Origin: Kitasatospora azatica KCTC 9699
Lineage (GTDB): Bacteria; Actinomycetota; Actinomycetes; Streptomycetales; Streptomycetaceae
Assembly: GCF_000744785.1 (NCBI RefSeq)
Contig: NZ_JQMO01000002.1
Coordinates: 1,488,001-1,552,000, forward strand
DNA length: 64,000 nt
Direction of reading: 5' to 3'
The notes beneath the pieces are model-generated. The model was not told the DNA's origin. It searched no databases and saw only the letters and a list, made by a program, of their open reading frames with translations. Below are positions 5,035 to 42,077 of the stretch, piece after piece; the stretch's first letter is position 1, and every line of letters starts with the position of its first letter. The position numbers and the translations under genes were made by a program.

Positions 5035-6255
5035 ATGGCCGCCGTGGGGAAGTTCCGTACCGCCGTTGGACTGACCGGGGGTCGGGTCCTGACCTGGTCC
5101 CTGTTCGGACGCCTGCCGGCCGCGATGGCTCCGATCGGGACCCTGCTGATGGTCAGTCAGCAGACCGGCAGCGTCTGGCGCGGCTCTGCGGTGACCGGTG
5201 CACTGGCGCTTGGCCAGGCCGTCGGCGGGCCCCTGGTGGGCCGAGCCGCTGACCGGCGAGGCCAGCGGCGGATCGGCCTGCCGGCCGCCGCAGTCAACAC
5301 GCTGGCCCTGCTCGCCCTGGTCGCCGCCTCCCAGTTCGACGCCGCACTCGGCTTGCAACTGCTGATCGCTGCTACCGCCGGCCTCTCCGTCCCGGCCGTC
5401 GGCCCGCTCTCGCGCAGCCGCTGGCTCTGGCTTGCCGAGGGGAAGGCCGAGCAGACCTCGGCCGCACTCTGGCTGGACGGCCTGATCGACGAGATCAGTT
5501 TCACCACCGGCCCCGCGATCATCGGCCTGCTCGCCGCGCTGTTCGCACCCGCCGCCGGGATGCTGCTGGCGGCCGCCCTGGTCGGCTGCTGCGCCACCCT
5601 CTTCGCCCTGCACCCGACCGCACCGCCCGGCGCGGTGGTCACCGCCACCCGGCCCGCCTTGAGCGCGCCGGTCCGGCTGCTGACCGTGCCGTATGTGCTG
5701 CTGTTGGCCGGCATGGCGCTGCTCGGGGTCGGCTTTGGTTCGATCCAGGTCGGCGTCACCGCGACCACCGTGCACCTCGGCCACCCGGGCACGGCCGGCC
5801 TGATCTACGGCCTGATGGGCGGAGTGAGCGCTTGCTCAGGCATCGCGATGGCCGCGCTGCCGACCCGCTTCGACCTGCCCGCCCGGCTGCGGGCGGGCAC
5901 CGTACTGCTGCTCGCCGCCACCCTGCTGCTTCCGCTGATCGGCGACACGTTGGGCGGCCTGGCGGTGGCGGTGGGCTGCGTCGGACTGGCCATCGCGCCA
6001 CAGATGATCACCATGTTCGGCCTGGTCGAGCGGACCGTGCCCGGAGCCCGGCTGGGCGAGGCGATGGCCGGCCTGGTCAGCAGCATCACGCTCGCCCAGT
6101 CGGCCGGCACCGTACTGGCCGGCTGGGCAGCCGACGTCGGCGGCCCGGCCGCCCCTTTCGGCGTGAGCTGCGGCGCCGCCGGCGCGGCCCTCTTGCTCGC
6201 GGCCACCACCGCCACCGCGCGCCGCTACGCCCAGCCGGCGGGGGTCATCGCCTGA
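5035..6255 (+). CDS. MFS transporter
   Basis: 406 residues with about twelve hydrophobic helices and the loop 2-3 motif GRAADRRGQRR near residue 65-75, typical of major facilitator proteins. It is preceded by a G-rich ribosome site (GGGGGG). The substrate is not indicated; the family suggests a small-molecule exporter in the cytoplasmic membrane. It lies 130 bp after the MerR gene in the same direction and may be co-transcribed or independent. It contains one copy of the dispersed palindrome TGAGCGCTTGCTCA (5825-5838), here encoding Val-Ser-Ala-Cys-Ser. Confidence 0.8.
   Translation: MAAVGKFRTAVGLTGGRVLTWSLFGRLPAAMAPIGTLLMVSQQTGSVWRGSAVTGALALGQAVGGPLVGRAADRRGQRRIGLPAAAVNTLALLALVAASQFDAALGLQLLIAATAGLSVPAVGPLSRSRWLWLAEGKAEQTSAALWLDGLIDEISFTTGPAIIGLLAALFAPAAGMLLAAALVGCCATLFALHPTAPPGAVVTATRPALSAPVRLLTVPYVLLLAGMALLGVGFGSIQVGVTATTVHLGHPGTAGLIYGLMGGVSACSGIAMAALPTRFDLPARLRAGTVLLLAATLLLPLIGDTLGGLAVAVGCVGLAIAPQMITMFGLVERTVPGARLGEAMAGLVSSITLAQSAGTVLAGWAADVGGPAAPFGVSCGAAGAALLLAATTATARRYAQPAGVIA
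5825..5838. repeat. Isolated copy of the TGAGCGCTTGCTCA palindrome
   Basis: Exact copy, inside the MFS gene, of the 14-bp palindrome that forms arrays at 24966-25177 and 41987-42063. The codon register (TG/AGC/GCT/TGC/TCA) differs from that in the other genes, so the shared feature is the DNA rather than a peptide. Confidence 0.7.
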
Positions 6256-22863: not shown

Positions 22864-23568
22864 TCAGGACTTCAGCAACGAGGCGGCATGAGTGAGGAGT
22901 TGCTCGTAGACGGCCGGCTGGTCCTGGTCGATGACCGGGTAGCCGCTGCCGAAGTCGCCGTTCAGCCAACGGGCCGAGATTCCGGGGTTGGCGCTGTCGG
23001 TGCCGTCGGTCAGGAAGAGGTGCGGGCTGCAGTTGACCCGACCGTCCTGGGCACTGTGGAACTGGGACATGATCGCGTGGCGGGCCGAGCCGGTGTCCAG
23101 CGCGGCGGCCAGCACCGGGACGTCCACCGCGCCGGTCTCCTCGGCGACCTCCAGGATCACGTGGCGCAGTGAGATGCACCGGCCCTGCGCCCAGAACGCC
23201 CGGCGCAGCGCCCGGTCCAGCTGCTCGCTGGCGTGCCAGCCCTGGGACTTGGCCGCGTGGACGGCCTCCAGGGCGGGCAGCGTGGTGACCGGGTAGGTCC
23301 AGTCGGGGCCCTGCCACAGGCGCCAGCCCGCCTCGGGTTCGAGGGCGCCGAGCACCGATATCTCCGAGTCCACTCCGGGGCGGGCGTTGACCTCCCGGTT
23401 GAACAACTCCAGGGGGAAGGCCCGGAAGTCGAACCAGAGCGTGCCTTCCAGACCGAGCCGCCGCCTGGTCTCGTGCAGGCGGTGCACGGCGACATGGGCG
23501 AAGGAGCAGTTGAGGTCGGTGTAGACGGCGATGGTGTCGGCGGTGACGGGCAGGCGCGGGTCCTGCAT
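22864..23568 (-). CDS. DsbA-family (thioredoxin-fold) oxidoreductase/isomerase-like protein
   Basis: 234 residues from ATG 23568 with AAGGAG upstream. The start VYTDLNCSFAHVAVHRLHE resembles the active-site strand and helix of the DsbA/HCCA-isomerase/FrnE group, with a single Cys instead of CxxC; the middle helices and the PHLFLTDGTD-like cis-Pro loop fit the fold. It is probably cytoplasmic with a glutathione- or mycothiol-type thiol role. It lies 97 bp downstream of the nitroimidazole-like operon on the same strand and could be its last gene or independent. Confidence 0.65.
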   Translation of the reverse strand: MQDPRLPVTADTIAVYTDLNCSFAHVAVHRLHETRRRLGLEGTLWFDFRAFPLELFNREVNARPGVDSEISVLGALEPEAGWRLWQGPDWTYPVTTLPALEAVHAAKSQGWHASEQLDRALRRAFWAQGRCISLRHVILEVAEETGAVDVPVLAAALDTGSARHAIMSQFHSAQDGRVNCSPHLFLTDGTDSANPGISARWLNGDFGSGYPVIDQDQPAVYEQLLTHAASLLKS

Positions 23569-23665: not shown

Positions 23666-24694
23666 TCAGGCGGTGCGGTGGTCGAAGCGGGTGAGGGTGC
23701 GAGTGCCGGAGCGCGGGCTGGAGATCACCCGGCCGCTCCAGCGGTAGCCCTGGCGGAAGGTCCGGTCGCCGTCCGGCTCGGTGACCCGGGCGAAACTGAG
23801 CACGATCCGGTCGCCCTGATGAACCGTCACCGGTTCGGCCACCGGCAGGTAGCAGTGCTTCCAACTGTCCGAGGTGGTCTCGCCGACCTGGTCGCCGGAG
23901 ATGTCCAGGGCCACGGTCGCCGAGAGCGCGGCCGCGAAGTACCCCTTGAAACCGGTGAATCGGCCGTCGCGCTGCGCCGTGAACGCCAACTCAACCTGGT
24001 AGTCGGGTGATTCGAGCGGGCTGTCGAACTCGAACCGGCGCAGCAGCCGGGGCGCGGCCAGGTAGCCGGAGAGCGGCAGGATCGTGTCGTAGTAGAGGTC
24101 GAAGGGTCCGCGTGCGCCGCGCCGGTCGAGCAGTCGGGCGAACTCCCGCTTGTCTCCGGCGTCCTGCACCTCGCCACCGGCCAACTGACTGAGCGCTTGC
24201 TCAGCGGCCACCGGGACCAGGTAGCTCTCCACCTGTCGCGGCAGCATCATCCCGCCCGGCTTGAGGAACCGGCTGCGGGCGTCGTCCAGGATCACCGGTG
24301 CGTTCTCGTTGTCCGCGAGGTTGCCGAGGATCTCGGAGACCACCAGGTCCACCCGCTCGGGCAGCTCCAGGTCGAAGGAGAGCCCGTGCAACGGGACGAA
24401 GCGGTCACCGAAGCCGGCCGCCGCCAGGTTCTCGGCGGCCTGGTCGAGGACCGACTTGTTGAGGTCGATCCCGTAGACCCGGGCGGCGCCGGCCTCCAGT
24501 GCCCAACGAGCCAGGATCCCGGTGCCGGTGCCCAGGTCCAGTACGGTGTCGCCCGGGCGGACCGCCTCGGTGATGGCGGCCTGGTAGGCGGTCATCCGCA
24601 GCCGGTCGCCGAGCATCAGATCGTGAAAGCTGTCGTCCCACTGCAGCAGCCGCTCGGAAGCGGGCAGCCAGACCTGCTCCACCTGGTAGCTCAC
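23666..24694 (-). CDS. SAM-dependent methyltransferase, PRMT-like
   Basis: 342 residues from GTG 24694 (GGAGG upstream, overlapping the Rieske stop as GTGA). Motif I VLDLGTGTGILARWALEAG and YGIDLNKS are followed by VVSEILGNLADNEN, which resembles the double-E loop of protein arginine methyltransferases, and a beta-rich C-terminal half as in PRMTs. It is the last coupled gene of the operon. Given the guanidino chemistry inferred for this operon, it could methylate a pathway intermediate, the nitroimidazole or a protein. One palindrome copy (24190-24203) is embedded and encodes Glu-Gln-Ala-Leu-Ser-Gln. Confidence 0.7.
   Translation of the reverse strand: MSYQVEQVWLPASERLLQWDDSFHDLMLGDRLRMTAYQAAITEAVRPGDTVLDLGTGTGILARWALEAGAARVYGIDLNKSVLDQAAENLAAAGFGDRFVPLHGLSFDLELPERVDLVVSEILGNLADNENAPVILDDARSRFLKPGGMMLPRQVESYLVPVAAEQALSQLAGGEVQDAGDKREFARLLDRRGARGPFDLYYDTILPLSGYLAAPRLLRRFEFDSPLESPDYQVELAFTAQRDGRFTGFKGYFAAALSATVALDISGDQVGETTSDSWKHCYLPVAEPVTVHQGDRIVLSFARVTEPDGDRTFRQGYRWSGRVISSPRSGTRTLTRFDHRTA
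24190..24203. repeat. Isolated palindrome copy in the methyltransferase gene
   Basis: TGAGCGCTTGCTCA, identical on the plus strand to the copy at 5825-5838 and complementary to the units of the arrays at 24966-25177 and 41987-42063. It is flanked by C and G to give a 16-bp palindrome. Confidence 0.75.
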
Positions 24695-25182
24695 TGGGCG
24701 CCTCCACTCTGATGCACGGTTGTCTGATGCACGGTCAGCGGATCGGTGGTGGGCCCCGCCACCGGGCAACCGGTGGCGAGGTCGAAGGTGGTGCGGTGCA
24801 GCGGGCAGGTGATCCGCAGGGTGCGGGCGTTGACGTAGCCGTGCACCAGGCGGCCCTTGCGATGCGGGCAGGCGGCGTCGATCACGAACTCCCGGCCGGC
24901 GACCCGCACCCGCAGGCGCTCGCCGCCGTCCAGCTCGGTGAGGACGGGATCGCCGGCGGGGTCGCTGAGCAAGCGCTCAGTCAGCTGGGCGGGCTCTCTG
25001 AGCGAGCGCTCAGTCACTTCGGCGGGGTCGCTGAGCAAGCGCTCAGTCACCTCAGCAGGCTCACCGAGCAAGCGCTCAGCCACCTCGGCGGACTCCCCGA
25101 GCAAGCGCTCAGTCACCTCGGGGGACTCGCTGAGCGAGCGCTCAGTCACCTCGGGGGACTCGCTGAGCAAGCGCTCAGTCAT
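24691..25182 (-). CDS. Rieske [2Fe-2S] ferredoxin-like protein with N-terminal 11-residue repeats
   Basis: 163 residues. The C-terminal 90 residues carry the Rieske motif CPH...(17)...CPLH, so a His2Cys2 2Fe-2S cluster is expected, as in small Rieske ferredoxins. The first 78 residues are seven copies of an 11-residue unit of the type VTERLLSESPE, created by a 33-bp DNA repeat. ATG 25182 overlaps the oxidase stop (ATGA) and the stop overlaps the methyltransferase start. Next to a haem-oxygenase-like diiron oxidase, it is a likely electron donor for N-oxygenation. The repeat-coded arm is absent from normal Rieske ferredoxins; translation could alternatively begin further in. Confidence 0.8.
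   Translation of the reverse strand: MTERLLSESPEVTERSLSESPEVTERLLGESAEVAERLLGEPAEVTERLLSDPAEVTERSLREPAQLTERLLSDPAGDPVLTELDGGERLRVRVAGREFVIDAACPHRKGRLVHGYVNARTLRITCPLHRTTFDLATGCPVAGPTTDPLTVHQTTVHQSGGAQ
24966..25177. repeat. Seven-copy 33-bp array of the palindrome TGAGCAAGCGCTCA
   Basis: Copies begin at 24966, 24999, 25032, 25065, 25098, 25131 and 25164, exactly 33 bp apart. Cores are TGAGCAAGCGCTCA, TGAGCGAGCGCTCA or CGAGCAAGCGCTCA, so the GAGC/GCTC arms are invariant while the 19 bp between cores vary more. It lies inside the Rieske coding sequence in frame. The 33-bp period is close to three DNA turns, so bound dimers would lie on nearly one face. Confidence 0.9.
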
Positions 25183-26039
25183 ACCTTCACCCGCCGGGCC
25201 CGCTCGACCGCCGCCTCGAAGGCGGTGCCGAGCAGCTCGGACAGGAGCAGCGCCCCCACCCACAGCTTGCCCGCGTCCAACCCGCGCGCCGCCTCCAGCT
25301 CGCGGATCGCCACCTGCATCTCCTCCCGGTGGAAGGTGTCGATGTGCAGGTGCTCGGTGTAGTACCGCCCGTGCGCCAGCCCGAGCCGCTCGCAGGCCCG
25401 GGCCTGCACGGTGAAGGCGTCCGGAATGCTGGCCTCGAGGTAGGCCAGCGCACCGAGGAAGTACTCCACCGCCGGCGCCCGCTGGGTGAGCCAGTAGAAG
25501 ACGTTGAGGAAGCCGAAGGTCTCCTCGGAGGTGGTGTCCAGGAAGCTCTCCAGCTCCTGCGGCAGGCCGAGTTCGGCCAGCAGGTCGAGGTAGAGCTGCG
25601 AGTGGGTCTGCCGAAGGTTGCCGCAGCCGAACTCGTCGATCAGCACCCGCATCACCGCCATCTGCGCGCGGATCGGCAGCCGGGGCACGGCGGGGAAGAA
25701 GTTCTGCGCCTCGGTCAGCCCGTCCAGTGCGAACTCCCGTACCACGGCGGCGAACTGTTCGCGGTCGGCCTGTTCGGCCAGGTACTCGCCGGCCGGCGTG
25801 CCCGGCCGCTCGGCGGCCAACAGGCCGTCCAGCGCGGCCAGCCACTGGGCCCTGCTGGTCACCTCAGGACCGATGGCCTGGGCGAGTTGGCAGATCTTGG
25901 GCACGATCCACTGCCGTTCCAGCTCGAGGATCGCGGTCAGCCCGGCCACGCTGGGCAGTTCGCGGTTGAGCAGGAAGAGCCGTCGCATCGGCCGCTCGGT
26001 CACCGTCCCCGTCTGCGGCTCCGGCTCGACCACCGTCAC
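25179..26039 (-). CDS. Haem-oxygenase-like diiron oxidase, RohS-like candidate N-oxygenase
   Basis: 286 residues, GTG start 26039 overlapping the aldolase stop. The all-helical iron-containing redox enzyme family is indicated by LTEAQNFFPAVPRLP (Glu110), VLIDEFGCGNLRQTHSQLY (Glu136, His146), Glu in the LEASIPDAF helix and YYTEHLHIDTFHREEM (His230, Asp234, His237), which together can bind two irons. Members oxidise amines to nitro groups (RohS type), cleave C-C bonds or decarboxylate. Beside the RohP-like and aldolase genes, oxidation of 2-aminoimidazole to 2-nitroimidazole is the best guess. The Rieske gene next in the operon could feed it electrons. Confidence 0.75.
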   Translation of the reverse strand: MTVVEPEPQTGTVTERPMRRLFLLNRELPSVAGLTAILELERQWIVPKICQLAQAIGPEVTSRAQWLAALDGLLAAERPGTPAGEYLAEQADREQFAAVVREFALDGLTEAQNFFPAVPRLPIRAQMAVMRVLIDEFGCGNLRQTHSQLYLDLLAELGLPQELESFLDTTSEETFGFLNVFYWLTQRAPAVEYFLGALAYLEASIPDAFTVQARACERLGLAHGRYYTEHLHIDTFHREEMQVAIRELEAARGLDAGKLWVGALLLSELLGTAFEAAVERARRVKV

Positions 26040-26872
26040 GGTGCCTCACCGCCGTCGGCGGCGGTGAGCTCCGCACAGGTCAGATCGGCCACCGTGTACT
26101 CGGTGCTGAGCACGCCCCGGCCGGCCAGCGCCGTCTTCAACGGCCGGTACCAGTCGTCGCGGTCCAGCTCGTACCGGTCGCAGTGCGCCGCCAGTTCGGC
26201 CGCCATGGCCTGCCTGGCCGCCGGTGGGGCGTCGAACAGCCGGGCGCAGAAGGCGGGTTCGACATTGGCCAGGGCGACCACATAGCCGTCCACCGGGCCC
26301 GAGTCGAGCAGCAGTCGCTCCATGCCCTGGCAGACCGGGACACCGGGAGCCGCCTCGATCAGTCGGCGGATCGCAGCCGGGTCGTCGGAGGACTCCTTGA
26401 CCCCGACCACATTGGGCAGCCGGCAGATCCGTAGCAGGGTGGACAGTTCGGTGGTGTTGTTGGAGAGCGCGCTCTCGTTGTAGACGATCACCGGCAGGCC
26501 GGCCTCGGCACTCAGGATCTCGAAGTGCCGGTAGGCGGCCTGCTGGCTGACCTGCGGCCCGTAGGGGGTGGTGGCGACAACCGCCGCCGCACCCAACTCC
26601 CGGGCCTCGAGGGCCAGATCGAGGACCTGGCGGGTGGTCGCCCGCTGGATTCCGGCCAGCACCGGCACTCCGTCGGCGTGCCGGAGGGTGGCGGCCAGCA
26701 TGGCCAGCCACTGACTGTCCGTCAGGGCCCAGCCCTCGCCGGTGCTCAGGTTCGCCAGCAGCGCGCGGACGTGCTCGCGCACCGAGCCGACCAGCCGGGC
26801 GACGTCCTGCTCGGCCACCGCACCGCCGGGGGTCAGCGGCGTCACCAGGGCGGCGGTCACTCCACGGATCAT
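26036..26872 (-). CDS. DapA/NAL-family aldolase, RohR-like
   Basis: 278 residues forming a class I aldolase barrel: Tyr131 (VIVYNESAL) and Schiff-base Lys159 (VVGVKESSDD) stand where DapA has Tyr133 and Lys161, and NLSTGEG replaces the usual GTTGE loop. True DapA genes are housekeeping; this copy sits in a biosynthetic operon. In the published azomycin route a family member (RohR) splits 4-hydroxy-2-ketoarginine into pyruvate and guanidinoacetaldehyde, which fits this context. GGAGAGGAG precedes ATG 26872, 17 bp after the DUF6190-like gene. Confidence 0.75.
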   Translation of the reverse strand: MIRGVTAALVTPLTPGGAVAEQDVARLVGSVREHVRALLANLSTGEGWALTDSQWLAMLAATLRHADGVPVLAGIQRATTRQVLDLALEARELGAAAVVATTPYGPQVSQQAAYRHFEILSAEAGLPVIVYNESALSNNTTELSTLLRICRLPNVVGVKESSDDPAAIRRLIEAAPGVPVCQGMERLLLDSGPVDGYVVALANVEPAFCARLFDAPPAARQAMAAELAAHCDRYELDRDDWYRPLKTALAGRGVLSTEYTVADLTCAELTAADGGEAP

Positions 26873-26889
26873 GTCCTACTCCTCTCCAG

Positions 26890-27405
26890 TCACAACGCCG
26901 TGGGAGCCAGGCGCAGGGCCAGCGACTGCTGGTAGAGCCGCTCCAGCGGTTGGGGGAAGCTCGGCTCGGCAGCCGGCTCCGGGGTTGGTTGAACGGCCTG
27001 GGCCGGCAGTTCGGGTCGTCCGAGGAGGCGGGAGCTCACCGTACGCAGCACCCCGCCGCGGTTGATCACCATGCCCAGGGCCAGCCGCTCGTGGGTTGCC
27101 AGCTCGCCGTACTTCGCGCTGTCGGGAGCGTGGCGCAGGTCGTCCTCGGTGTAGCCGGTCCGGTCGATCGCCATCACGGTGTGCAGGAAGTCCATGAACG
27201 GGTAGTAGGCGTCCTGCACTTCGCGCGAGAACTGCCAGACCAGGTCGTCGCAGCGGCCGACCTGCTCCAGGCTCATCGTCACCCGCCCGGCCAGCCGGGC
27301 GACGAAGAAGGCCTTGCAGGCCACCCGGACGCTCTCCTCGGCACTGTTCATGCCGAGGAAGAGCGTCGCGTCGACGAACTCGACTGCCGCCGGTTCAGGC
27401 GACAT
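26890..27405 (-). CDS. DUF6190-like protein, candidate RohQ-type cyclase
   Basis: 171 residues. [18 protein letters not shown] at the N terminus with an early Asp, the segment [28 protein letters not shown] and a later Asp/Glu set resemble the small Streptomyces family I know as DUF6190, perhaps PIN-like in fold. Function is unproven. Its place between the arginine-oxidase-like and aldolase genes makes it the candidate for closing guanidinoacetaldehyde to 2-aminoimidazole. The ATG at 27405 lies inside the end of the aminotransferase-fold gene (11-bp overlap), so translation is coupled. Confidence 0.65.
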
Positions 27406-28597
27406 TGCGGTCCAGCACCTGACGGGTGATGTCCATCGCCTCGGCGAACATCTCGGGGTCGCGGGCCAGCGCGAAGCGGATGTAGGCGTCGCCGCGGCTC
27501 GGCTCGCTCCAGTAGAAGTACCGGCCGGGCAGCACGTAGACGCCCTCGACGTAGAGCAGGCGCTGCAGGTCGGTGGCGGTCAGCAGCGGGTGGTTGACCT
27601 TGGCCCAGGCCACGCTCACCTTCACGGCCGGCTCCTGGTACTGCAGGATGGTGCCGTCCAGGGTCTTCCGTACCTGGTCCCGGTTGCGGTTCAACACATC
27701 GCGTACCGATGCGAGTTGCTCGTGCCGGGCGTCCTCCAGGTAGTGCGCCAGCATGTTCAGGGTGAACGGCGAGACGTTGAGCAGCACGCTGGTGTGCAGG
27801 TTGTACACGGCCTCGCGGATGTCGTCGCTGGAGGTGATCATCGCGCACTTGGCGTCCTGCACCGGCCAGGTCTTCCCGGTGTCCTCGATCGCCAGGTAGG
27901 TCACCCCCGAGCTCTCCAGCAGCTCGTAGACGTCGAAGCGGGTGGCCTCGGAGTCGAACAGCGTGAAGGAGGCGAAGCAGAAGTCGATCACCAGGACCTT
28001 GTGGTGGTCCTTGCAGAAGCGGACCACCTCCTCGAAGCCGCGCCGCCCGAACTGCAGCAGGCTGAAGCCGGTGGGGTTGTTGGGGTCGACCAGGAAGAGC
28101 GCGTCGGTGCGGACCCGGCGCTTGAGCTCGCTGTAGATCCGGTCCGGGTCGTGCAGCGCGGACTCGTCCAGCGGGTAGGCGGCCACGCCGAGGTTGGCCA
28201 GCACGTCGTGCAGGTTGTCGAAACAGGGCTCGATCAGCGTCACGGCCATCCGGCGCTGCTTGAGGAACATGCCGGCCACCATCGTGGAGATCGAGGCGGC
28301 GTAGGAGAGCATGGTCTTGTTGCGGGCGAGCGCCGTGGGCTGGCGGTGCAGGCGGAAGAACGCCTCGGTGAACCGCTGCTCGTAGTGGGCCTGCAGGCCC
28401 TCCTCGGCCTGGTACCACAGCTTCGGCAACGAGGCCACGATCTCGCGCTGACGCGGCGACTGCTGCTGGTGGGTGTGCGCGTCGGCCAGGTTGTACCTGG
28501 TGCGCAGCGCCTCGATCTCGTGCTGGGTCAGATCGAGCAGATCGACGGCCGGGTCGACGGCCGAATCGATCGCGGTCTGGCTCTGGTTCGGGTTCAT
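27395..28597 (-). CDS. RohP/MppP-like PLP-dependent arginine oxidase
   Basis: 400 residues, fold type I. PLP Lys242 lies in [10 protein letters not shown], Asp205 in VIDFCF, NNPTG at 173-177 and Arg374 near the C terminus. The N-terminal NLADAH (36-41) followed by SPRQREIV and LPKLW matches MppP/RohP, where the equivalent Asp and His (MppP Asp27, His29) close over the substrate and convert an aminotransferase into an O2-using L-arginine 4-hydroxylase. Here they are Asp39 and His41. It is the first gene of the operon and sets its substrate as L-arginine or a near relative. Assignment rests on recalled family sequence. Confidence 0.8.
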
Positions 28598-28768: not shown

Positions 28769-28829
28769 GCGCGTACAACTGCGGATCCGTCAGGTCGGCC
28801 GATGGACAACGTCACCTAGGATGACCGGC

Positions 28830-29444
28830 ATGAATCCGGCACGAACCAGCAGCGTGCCCGTCGACCTCGGGCCCCGTCCGCCACGGGAGCGGTCCGATGC
28901 CGCGCGCAATCGCGGCCGCATTCTGGTGGTGGCCGCGCGTCTGTTCGCCGAGCAGGGCGTGGGCGCGGTCTCGCTGGACGCGATCGCGACCGCGGCAGGA
29001 GTCGGCAAGGGCACGCTCTTTCGCCGCTTCGGCAGCAAGGCGGGGCTGGCGGCCGCCCTGCTGGACGCCGAGGACCGGGCGCTGCAGGAACGCATCCTGT
29101 TCGGACCGCCGCCGCTCGGCCCGGGGGCCGACGCGGCCACCCGGATCATCGCGTTCTTCGACGCCTATCTCGAACTGCTGGAACGCAACCTCGAGTTGAT
29201 TCGCCTCTCGGAGACCGCGGCACCCGGCGCGCGGTATCGGGTGGGCTCCTACCAGCTGTGGCGCCAGCACCTGTCGATGCTGCTCGCGGAGTCCTGTCCC
29301 GGGCTGGACACCGAGGTGACGGCCCATCTGCTGCTGGCCCCGGTGGCCGGCGAGCTGCACCACGCGCTGCGCTCGGCCGAGGTGACGCCGGAACGGATCC
29401 GCTCCTCGGTAGCACTGTTGGTGCGGGGCGTCATCGCCAGTTGA
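28830..29444 (+). CDS. TetR-family regulator, divergent from the nitroimidazole-like operon
   Basis: 204 residues from ATG 28830. The helix-turn-helix is RGRILVVAARLFAEQGVGAVSLDAIATAAGVGKGTLFRRFGSKAG split over residues 31-75, the normal TetR domain, followed by a helical ligand domain. TAGGAT (28817-28822) ends 7 bases before the ATG and no ribosome site is seen, so the mRNA is probably leaderless; the in-frame ATG 28821 overlaps the -10. The palindrome at 28715-28728 in the shared upstream region is its likely operator. A pathway product is the likely inducer (inference). Confidence 0.82.
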   Translation: MNPARTSSVPVDLGPRPPRERSDAARNRGRILVVAARLFAEQGVGAVSLDAIATAAGVGKGTLFRRFGSKAGLAAALLDAEDRALQERILFGPPPLGPGADAATRIIAFFDAYLELLERNLELIRLSETAAPGARYRVGSYQLWRQHLSMLLAESCPGLDTEVTAHLLLAPVAGELHHALRSAEVTPERIRSSVALLVRGVIAS

Positions 29445-40934: not shown

Positions 40935-42077
40935 GTGACTGTTGATGCGGCAACCAAAGTCGACGTGGTCGTGATCGGCGCGGGTCAGGCCGGCCTCTCC
41001 GCCGCCTACCACCTGCGCCGGCGCGGCTTCGCGCCGTACCGCGACTTCGTGGTGCTGGACGCCGACCGCGCGCCGGGCGGTGCCTGGGCGCACCGCTCGC
41101 CCTCACTGCGGATGGCCACGGTGCACGGTTTTCACGACCTGCCGGACTTCGAGCTGCCGCCGCCCGACCCGGACGCGCCCGCCCGCGAGGTGGTGCCCGG
41201 GTACTTCGCCGCGTACGAGGCCCGGCACGCGCTGCCGGTGGTGCGCCCGGCCAGAGTGAGCGCGGTGCGTGAGGCCGGTGGGCGGCTGCTGGTGGAGTCC
41301 TCCGCCGGCGACTGGTCGGCCCGTGCCCTGATCAACGCCACCGGGACCTGGACCCGCCCGTTCCTCCCCCACTACCCCGGCCGGTTCGCCGGCCGGCAGC
41401 TGCACTACGCCGACTACCGGGGACCGGCGGGCTTCGCCGGGCAGCGCGTCGTGGTGGTGGGCGGCGGCGCCTCGGCGATCCAGGTGCTCTCGGAGCTGGC
41501 CGAGGTCGCCGAGACGGTCTGGGTGACCCGGCACGAGCCGGTCTTCCGGAACGGGCCGTTCAGTCCGGAGGCGGGGCGCGCGGCGGTGGCCCTGGTCGAG
41601 CAGCGGGTGCGCGAGGGCCTGCCGGTGCGCAGCGTGGTGAGCGTGACCGGGCTCGGCCCCTCGGTGGCGCTGCGCCGGGCCGAACAGCTCGGCGCGCTGC
41701 ACCGGCGCCCGATGTTCGACCGGCTGACCGAGCACGGCGTCGCCTGGGGCGACACCGAGCTGGCGGTGGACGCGATCGTCTGGGCGACCGGCTTCCGGTC
41801 CGAGGTCGGCCACCTGGCACCGCTCGGGCTGCGCGAGCCGGGCGGCGGGATCCGGCTGGACGGCACCCGGGCGGCCGCCGACCCACGGGTGCACCTGGTG
41901 GGGTACGGGCCCTCGGCGAGCACCATCGGCGCGAACCGGGCGGGACGGGCGGCGGTGAACGGGATCGTCAAGCTGATCGGCGCTCCTGAGCAAGCGCTCA
42001 CTCAGGCAGAGCAAGCGCTCGCTCAGGCAGAGCAAGCGCTCGGCCAGCGCGAACAAGCGCTTGCTCAGGCGTCGTAG
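40935..42077 (+). CDS. FAD/NAD(P)-binding monooxygenase-like oxidoreductase with repeated C-terminal tail
   Basis: 380 residues from GTG 40935. FAD motif VVVIGAGQAGLSAAY (10-24), NADP motif VVVGGGASAIQVL (about 172-184) and the ATGF motif (VWATGFRSE) show a two-dinucleotide-fold flavoprotein of the FMO/CzcO type. The last 30 residues repeat AEQALAQ four times, encoded by four palindrome copies at 21-bp period. This tail is not part of the enzyme fold. Its 3' end overlaps the convergent paaE stop by 13 bp. Substrate unknown. Confidence 0.8.
   Translation: MTVDAATKVDVVVIGAGQAGLSAAYHLRRRGFAPYRDFVVLDADRAPGGAWAHRSPSLRMATVHGFHDLPDFELPPPDPDAPAREVVPGYFAAYEARHALPVVRPARVSAVREAGGRLLVESSAGDWSARALINATGTWTRPFLPHYPGRFAGRQLHYADYRGPAGFAGQRVVVVGGGASAIQVLSELAEVAETVWVTRHEPVFRNGPFSPEAGRAAVALVEQRVREGLPVRSVVSVTGLGPSVALRRAEQLGALHRRPMFDRLTEHGVAWGDTELAVDAIVWATGFRSEVGHLAPLGLREPGGGIRLDGTRAAADPRVHLVGYGPSASTIGANRAGRAAVNGIVKLIGAPEQALTQAEQALAQAEQALGQREQALAQAS
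41987..42063. repeat. Four-copy 21-bp array of the same palindrome
   Basis: Cores start at 41987 (TGAGCAAGCGCTCA), 42008 and 42029 (AGAGCAAGCGCTCG) and 42050 (CGAACAAGCGCTTG), each exactly 21 bp after the last. AAGCGCT is invariant. 21 bp equals two DNA turns. The array encodes the C terminus of the monooxygenase and ends next to the convergent paaE stop. Confidence 0.88.

Follow-up and report, generated by a model that had tools for sequence, protein, structure and literature searches.

An azomycin-type operon of Kitasatospora azatica with a Rieske gene and a PRMT-like methyltransferase gene behind rohS

We analysed a window of 64,000 nucleotides from the 8.27 Mb genome of Kitasatospora azatica KCTC 9699, in which a minus-strand run of six genes (positions 23666-28597) encodes homologues of RohP, RohQ, RohR and RohS, a Rieske protein and a methyltransferase that resembles protein arginine methyltransferases (PRMTs). 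Judged by sequence, the run is an azomycin-type (2-nitroimidazole) operon of the Streptomyces eurocidicus kind, an added locus of a known cluster type. New here are two lineages of RohS, fusions of the Rieske domain to RohS or to the PRMT-like enzyme, and a repeat array that opens the Rieske gene. We put the probability at roughly three in four that the operon is of the azomycin type and, jointly, that the Rieske protein feeds RohS and the PRMT-like enzyme methylates a guanidine-like compound. A class of antimicrobial drugs goes back to azomycin, the natural 2-nitroimidazole, and the two helper genes now become directly testable.

Based on homology, RohP would convert L-arginine with O2 and pyridoxal phosphate (PLP) to 4-hydroxy-2-ketoarginine, RohR would split off pyruvate to give guanidinoacetaldehyde, RohQ would close and dehydrate the ring to 2-aminoimidazole, and RohS would turn the amino group into the nitro group. 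These four steps have been demonstrated by others in other strains, and the gene content predicts core azomycin production by the present one. The Rieske protein would supply the electrons that RohS needs, and the PRMT-like enzyme would act late, with either the product or the cyclic guanidine 2-aminoimidazole as its substrate.

An operon of the Streptomyces eurocidicus kind

All six frames are intact, with neighbouring genes either overlapping or separated by no more than 17 bp (Table 1). A first-pass annotation made from the letters alone had placed these genes here and had named residues of RohP (D39, H41, K242) and RohR (Y131, K159) that are exactly in place. The azomycin-type operon that it proposed is borne out by matches of RohP, RohQ, RohR and RohS to solved structures and by their 61-73% identity to the proteins of S. 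eurocidicus ATCC 27428. The Pfam models found at the six genes were Aminotran_1_2, DUF6190, DHDPS, Haem_oxygenas_2, Rieske, and methyltransferase models together with PRMT5_C.

In the rohPQRST locus of S. eurocidicus (L012) the genes from rohP to the PRMT-like gene stand in the same order, with 61-82% protein identity to the window. The Rieske and PRMT-like genes, which had been annotated as extra, occupy the fifth and sixth places there, directly behind rohS, and thus are not extra. The two loci differ in that S. eurocidicus has a gene for a multicopper oxidase of 1262 aa between the PRMT-like and DsbA-like genes, which the window lacks, and in that the Rieske gene of the window opens with a 33-bp repeat array. 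The rohPQRST loci of Pseudomonas (DF41, CMR5c and the P. syringae complex) have the same five-gene core, which there adjoins luxRI; RohP of CMR5c and RohP of S. eurocidicus share 54.6% identity, according to the accessible text of PMC12713392. The accessible passages of PMC12713392 and PMC10724926 name S. eurocidicus and Kitasatospora azatica as hosts of the azomycin pathway, instead of Streptomyces cattleya as the annotation had it.

One scan of genome contigs yielded 116 loci with RohQ; the counts given here rest on the best 80, chosen by RohQ, a choice that would overlook PRMT-like or Rieske genes located at a distance from it. All six genes were found in 25 of the 80 loci and all except the PRMT-like gene in 47. 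Three loci, all from Nostocaceae, carry RohQ, RohS, Rieske and PRMT without RohP and RohR, and L069 has RohP, RohQ, RohR and RohS plus a Rieske-like sequence that is broken between frames. Four loci are without RohS, containing only RohP, RohQ and RohR (L009), only RohQ and RohR (L058 and L060) or only RohQ (L055). Missing co-occurrence in other genomes would have spoken against the operon; gene order and content recur widely, in many genomes, and are therefore not due to chance. Among 199 related genomes, eight carry DUF6190. In Gammaproteobacteria, one of 368 genomes besides the query matched RohQ, below the cut-off and with an internal stop.

RohP matched PDB entry 6c3a, which we take to be RohP of S. 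cattleya, with 681.7 bits over residues 14-398, compared with 193.9 bits for MppP and 166.2 bits for 7n79 (named only 'Aminotran_1_2 domain-containing protein'). Ordinary aminotransferases as best matches, another point on which the annotation could have failed, were not seen; chains so named score 28.9 bits at most, and we reject this assignment. The NCBIfam MppP model reached 174.3 bits, under its cut-off of 450 bits. RohP is 73% identical to its S. eurocidicus counterpart, and its three residues are kept in all 74 loci that have RohP. Among plasmid relatives, two RohP-like proteins with 30% identity were found.

RohQ scored 221.8 bits with Pfam DUF6190 and matches the solved RohQ. VapC and other PIN-domain toxins share its fold at about 10% identity; unlike them, the match to the solved RohQ would make it a cyclodehydratase. 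RohR (Pfam DHDPS, 108.8 bits; 61% identity to S. eurocidicus RohR) keeps the Schiff-base lysine K159 and the tyrosine Y131 in all 76 loci with RohR, and is by family, residues and identity a probable retro-aldolase of the roh type, with a predicted substrate. RohS matched PbrRohS (9pfx) with 194.9 bits and SznF with 47 bits. Its residues E136, H146, E202, H230, D234 and H237 align with the ligands of SznF named in the accessible part of PMC11705231, and these six positions as well as E110 are kept in all 76 RohS loci.

Rieske fusions and the two lineages of RohS

The Rieske protein scored 39.8 bits with Pfam Rieske and, over 74 aa, shares 82% identity with the product of the fifth gene in the S. 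eurocidicus locus. Its ligands, C-X-H and C-X2-H, are present as CPH and CPLH and are kept in all 75 loci where a match was found. From the gene order and from five consecutive accessions in the accessible part of PMC12713392, we infer that the gene is rohT; in the literature searched, nothing was found that names RohT together with azomycin. A Rieske sequence adjoins RohS in all 76 loci, the broken one of L069 included.

In some loci the domain is fused to one of its neighbours. RohS and the Rieske domain form one open frame in all three Nostocaceae loci (368 aa in L071 and L072), and 19 of 120 homologues of this protein, among the matches listed, carry both Pfam domains. Rieske and PRMT form one open frame in 10 of the 28 PRMT loci, all from Streptomyces, and both domains occur in 22 of 120 PRMT homologues among the matches listed. 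They are separate frames, none of them fused, in 12 PRMT loci, and lie in the same frame with a stop between them in six (L052, L080, L087 and the three from Nostocaceae, with PRMT upstream). Since the Rieske domain is fused to either partner, the three proteins should work together, which suggests a working unit of RohS, Rieske and PRMT. In the Nostoc/Desmonostoc loci (L071, L072 and L073) PRMT, RohQ and RohS::Rieske stand side by side (about 7828-10656 in L071 and L072); no RohR was found nearby, and matches to RohP reached at most 31.6 bits in those genomes.

A tree of RohS was built from 77 rows, the window and 76 loci, leaving out the four loci without RohS and no others. It separates the 29 rows with PRMT (the window and 28 loci) from the 48 without it by a single change of label, with support of 100/98 in a bootstrap that had not settled, and none of 500 shuffles gave an equally low number of changes. 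The PRMT side comprises Actinomycetota, Cyanobacteriota and Pseudomonadota. Being unrooted, the tree is neutral as to which state is older; its long rows include L080, L088 and L081, and the joining of the Proteobacteria was flagged as a possible long-branch effect.

The split is also visible in single residues. Position 111, beside E110, is alanine in all 28 loci with PRMT and serine in all 48 without, and position 206, four residues past the ligand E202, is proline and leucine, respectively, in the same numbers. At position 232, between H230 and D234, all 28 loci with PRMT have histidine, and those without have tyrosine (42/48) or histidine (6/48). At the marker positions PbrRohS has the residues seen on the PRMT side. 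The two lineages and their markers provide a quick guide for pairing RohS homologues with partners in tests.

Proposed roles of the PRMT-like enzyme and the Rieske protein

The methyltransferase has the PRMT fold, a Rossmann domain and a beta-barrel. E121 and E130, which we take to be the glutamates of the double-E loop of PRMTs, are invariant in all 28 PRMT loci and spaced as in the alignment with 3r0q and 6cu3. Its residues mark the window enzyme as PRMT-like and not as a type I PRMT. From PRMT1, 5, 6 and 8 it differs by a serine in place of the THW histidine, by its gene being part of a biosynthetic operon, and by its Rieske-fused relatives. We predict that it methylates a guanidine-like compound of the pathway. 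Late action is suggested because PRMT still accompanies RohQ and RohS in those Nostocaceae genomes in which RohP had no match, and because the guanidinium-gripping glutamates are kept and a Rieske fusion exists in ten Streptomyces loci. PRMT and RohS might act jointly on one guanidine, as do the methyltransferase SznE and SznF, a haem-oxygenase-like diiron oxidase (HDO), in the synthesis of streptozotocin. That cluster likewise pairs a guanidine methyltransferase with an HDO N-oxygenase, SznF differing from RohS in its cupin domain and its N-nitrosourea product (PMC11705231, accessible part); SznE is likened to the present enzyme by description only.

Several observations weigh against this reading of the operon. 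The core chemistry can do without PRMT, since 48 of 76 RohS loci lack it. The gene is present in S. eurocidicus, which the accessible part of PMC12713392 knows for unmethylated azomycin, and in Actinokineospora terrae, whose RohS accepts bare 2-aminoimidazole and yielded 12.2 uM azomycin from it in vitro (PMC10724926, accessible part). Nor is the PRMT gene always a neighbour of the Rieske gene: in Paraburkholderia and one Alteromonadaceae genome it stands upstream of rohP, in Nostocaceae it stands upstream of rohQ, and in L088 it comes after another open frame. What is presumably the THW-loop histidine of classical type I PRMTs is serine (S277) in all 28 PRMT loci, so that substrate or mechanism may differ. 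Furthermore, the repeat array lengthens the N-terminus of the Rieske protein in the window and could impair it. Of the 191 related genomes that lack DUF6190, 14 also have the DsbA-like gene found here behind the PRMT-like gene, which makes its link to the cluster a loose one.

A scan of the 199 related genomes that was independent of the RohQ choice, with the 10 best candidates scored per genome, gave PRMT matches in 16 of them: four above 480 bits, each at most 2.3 kb from rohQ, and twelve at 60-88 bits. Among the best 10 of 55 papers, judged by title and abstract, there was no account of a nitroimidazole or 2-aminoimidazole together with a methyltransferase; the founding work of Hedges and Ryan 2019, known to us via citations, may hold one.

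Tentatively, the reading can be taken further. RohS, Rieske and PRMT might be one physical unit across three phyla, in which PRMT methylates 2-aminoimidazole for a dedicated, Rieske-fed RohS and the end product, as yet undescribed, is N-methyl-2-nitroimidazole or another methylated imidazole of this type with a nitro or nitroso group. RohS homologues vary in azomycin output, and two of them gave zero or trace azomycin with bare 2-aminoimidazole and artificial reductant (accessible part of PMC10724926); a methylated substrate would fit this outcome. If the enzyme does methylate a cyclic guanidine, this would be a case of the PRMT fold put to use on a small molecule, and methylated nitroimidazoles would be predicted from several phyla.

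It is also possible, though doubtful, that the PRMT-like enzyme protects the producer by methylating azomycin, a toxic intermediate or a cell protein, with the product pathway unchanged. This would agree with the plain azomycin of S. eurocidicus, a PRMT carrier (PMC12713392, accessible part), and with the neighbours of the loci without PRMT, which carry a YdcZ exporter and a metallo-beta-lactamase (MBL)-fold protein instead. Self-protection alone, however, leaves the fusion of PRMT and Rieske unexplained. Rather unlikely, in our estimation, is methylation of free arginine ahead of RohP, by which the pathway would run on N-omega-methylarginine to a methylated 2-aminoimidazole or nitroimidazole. 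The retained double-E glutamates are compatible with it, and SznE, an arginine-guanidino methyltransferase, is indeed paired with an HDO enzyme (PMC11705231, accessible part). In Nostocaceae, however, PRMT accompanies RohQ and RohS::Rieske, with no RohP in the three genomes searched (best match 31.6 bits), and in ten loci it is fused to Rieske; fusions of RohP were not looked for.

For the Rieske protein, transfer of electrons to RohS is likely and well motivated. The annotation had proposed a dedicated donor, and this is supported indirectly by the RohS::Rieske fusions and by the constant neighbourhood of the two; the protein is the best candidate for a natural donor because a Rieske sequence adjoins RohS throughout the RohS loci examined and because Nostocaceae have the two fused. 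In the accessible part of PMC10724926, RohS was assayed with phenazine methosulfate and NADH as reductant, and with artificial reductants it was slow, running at about 5% of the AurF and PrnD rate. Should the Rieske protein prove to be the donor in nature, its addition would be expected to boost the enzymatic yield of nitro groups, and the re-reduction route of one HDO enzyme would become visible. The literature searched contained no account of azomycin with a Rieske protein or of a Rieske-HDO fusion; Hedges and Ryan 2019, again known via citations, may describe them.

We consider it unlikely that the Rieske protein is a structural or regulatory partner that joins RohS and PRMT and donates no electrons. 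Fusion to two different enzymes would suit either role, scaffold or donor, and no Rieske reductase was found among the eight proteins scanned at the window locus. A mere scaffold would, however, not need the four [2Fe-2S] ligands, which are kept in each of the 75 matched loci, and the RohS assays relied on added reductant (PMC10724926, accessible part).

Repeat array, neighbouring genes and partial loci

Table 1. Features of the roh locus in the window
Feature	Position	Strand	Details
RohP, PLP- and O2-dependent arginine oxidase/hydroxylase homologue	27395..28597	-	400 aa; D39, H41, K242
RohQ, cyclodehydratase homologue, DUF6190, PIN-like fold	26890..27405	-	171 aa; 11-bp overlap with rohP
RohR, DapA-fold retro-aldolase homologue	26036..26872	-	278 aa; 17-bp gap to rohQ; Y131, K159
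RohS, haem-oxygenase-like diiron N-oxygenase homologue	25179..26039	-	286 aa; 4-bp overlap with rohR
Rieske [2Fe-2S] protein, rohT position	24691..25182	-	163 aa; 4-bp ATGA overlap with rohS
PRMT-like S-adenosylmethionine-dependent methyltransferase	23666..24694	-	342 aa, GTG start; 4-bp GTGA overlap with Rieske gene
DsbA-fold protein, recurrent cluster neighbour	22864..23568	-	234 aa; 97 bp past PRMT-like gene; Pfam DSBA 40.3 bits
TetR-family regulator, divergent from rohP	28821..29444	+	Pfam TetR_N 59.6 bits
33-bp tandem array, 6.9 copies, 5' end of Rieske gene, in frame	24954..25181	-	units carry TGAGCGCTTGCTCA or one-base variant
Single exact TGAGCGCTTGCTCA copy within PRMT-like gene	24190..24203	+	

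The first 75 or so codons of the Rieske gene consist of the array, with units that read like TERLLSESPEV, and the matches to RohS and Rieske are 234 bp apart in the window, compared with 15-117 bp in the 25 PRMT relatives listed. In-frame GTG codons in the units mean that the Rieske start could lie within the array; the first ATG is favoured because of its overlap with rohS. The palindromic repeat TGAGCGCTTGCTCA, in extended form CTGACTGAGCGCTTGCTCAG, has 30 exact copies in this genome and occurs once each in three of 60 other genomes searched. With one mismatch, and with C or T accepted at position 9, there were 67 matches on both strands, and the reversed pattern gave two. Copies lie inside and outside long open frames, several of them in clusters or tandem arrays. 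In the window the repeat is found at 5825-5838, 24190-24203, 24954-25181 and 41987-42067; the last of these is a second array, forming the final codons of the open frame 40935-42077.

The repeat resembles operators of the TetR type. As an operator of the neighbouring TetR-family gene it was rejected, with no copy (up to three mismatches) between this gene and rohP, and the many copies inside long open frames elsewhere weaken that reading as well. Spread by simple insertion was rejected for the copy in the PRMT-like gene, since there is no length change at this place compared with 20 aligned relatives. A repetitive extragenic palindromic (REP) transposase was considered as mover of the repeat; the genome has one Y1-transposase region.

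The multicopper oxidase gene follows PRMT in 17 of the 28 loci with PRMT (12591-16379 in L012) and in none of the 52 without, and the YdcZ exporter and the MBL-fold protein are each present in 37 of these 52 loci, which include the four without RohS, and in none of the 28 (for example L017, 5086-6874). That the operon is decaying in this strain and makes little or no product seems improbable, the most so of all alternatives: the oxidase gene is missing between the PRMT-like and DsbA-like genes, and comparison with related Rieske genes showed no such array at their start, but the six frames are intact and tightly coupled with catalytic residues kept, and L014, L018, L020 and L076 likewise lack the oxidase gene, with the DsbA-like gene close behind PRMT.

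The DsbA-like gene was matched in 64 of 76 RohS loci, in both lineages and either up- or downstream, and in six of the eight related genomes with DUF6190. Contig ends cut some loci (e.g., L025 and L077), and absence of the oxidase or DsbA-like gene is unsure in these. The TetR-family gene is possibly the regulator of the cluster; a similarly starting gene, likewise divergent from rohP, is present in L010 and L018.

Some loci hold only a part of the gene set. In two Woesearchaeota loci (L058 and L060, 8018-11267) RohQ and RohR stand next to genes that by eye resemble those of a radical-SAM enzyme and an amino-acid dehydrogenase, and neither RohP nor RohS had a match within these loci. Kitasatospora sp. 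GAS204B (L009, 7770-10343) carries RohP, RohQ and RohR without RohS, Rieske and PRMT, possibly a cluster for 2-aminoimidazole only or a decayed one.

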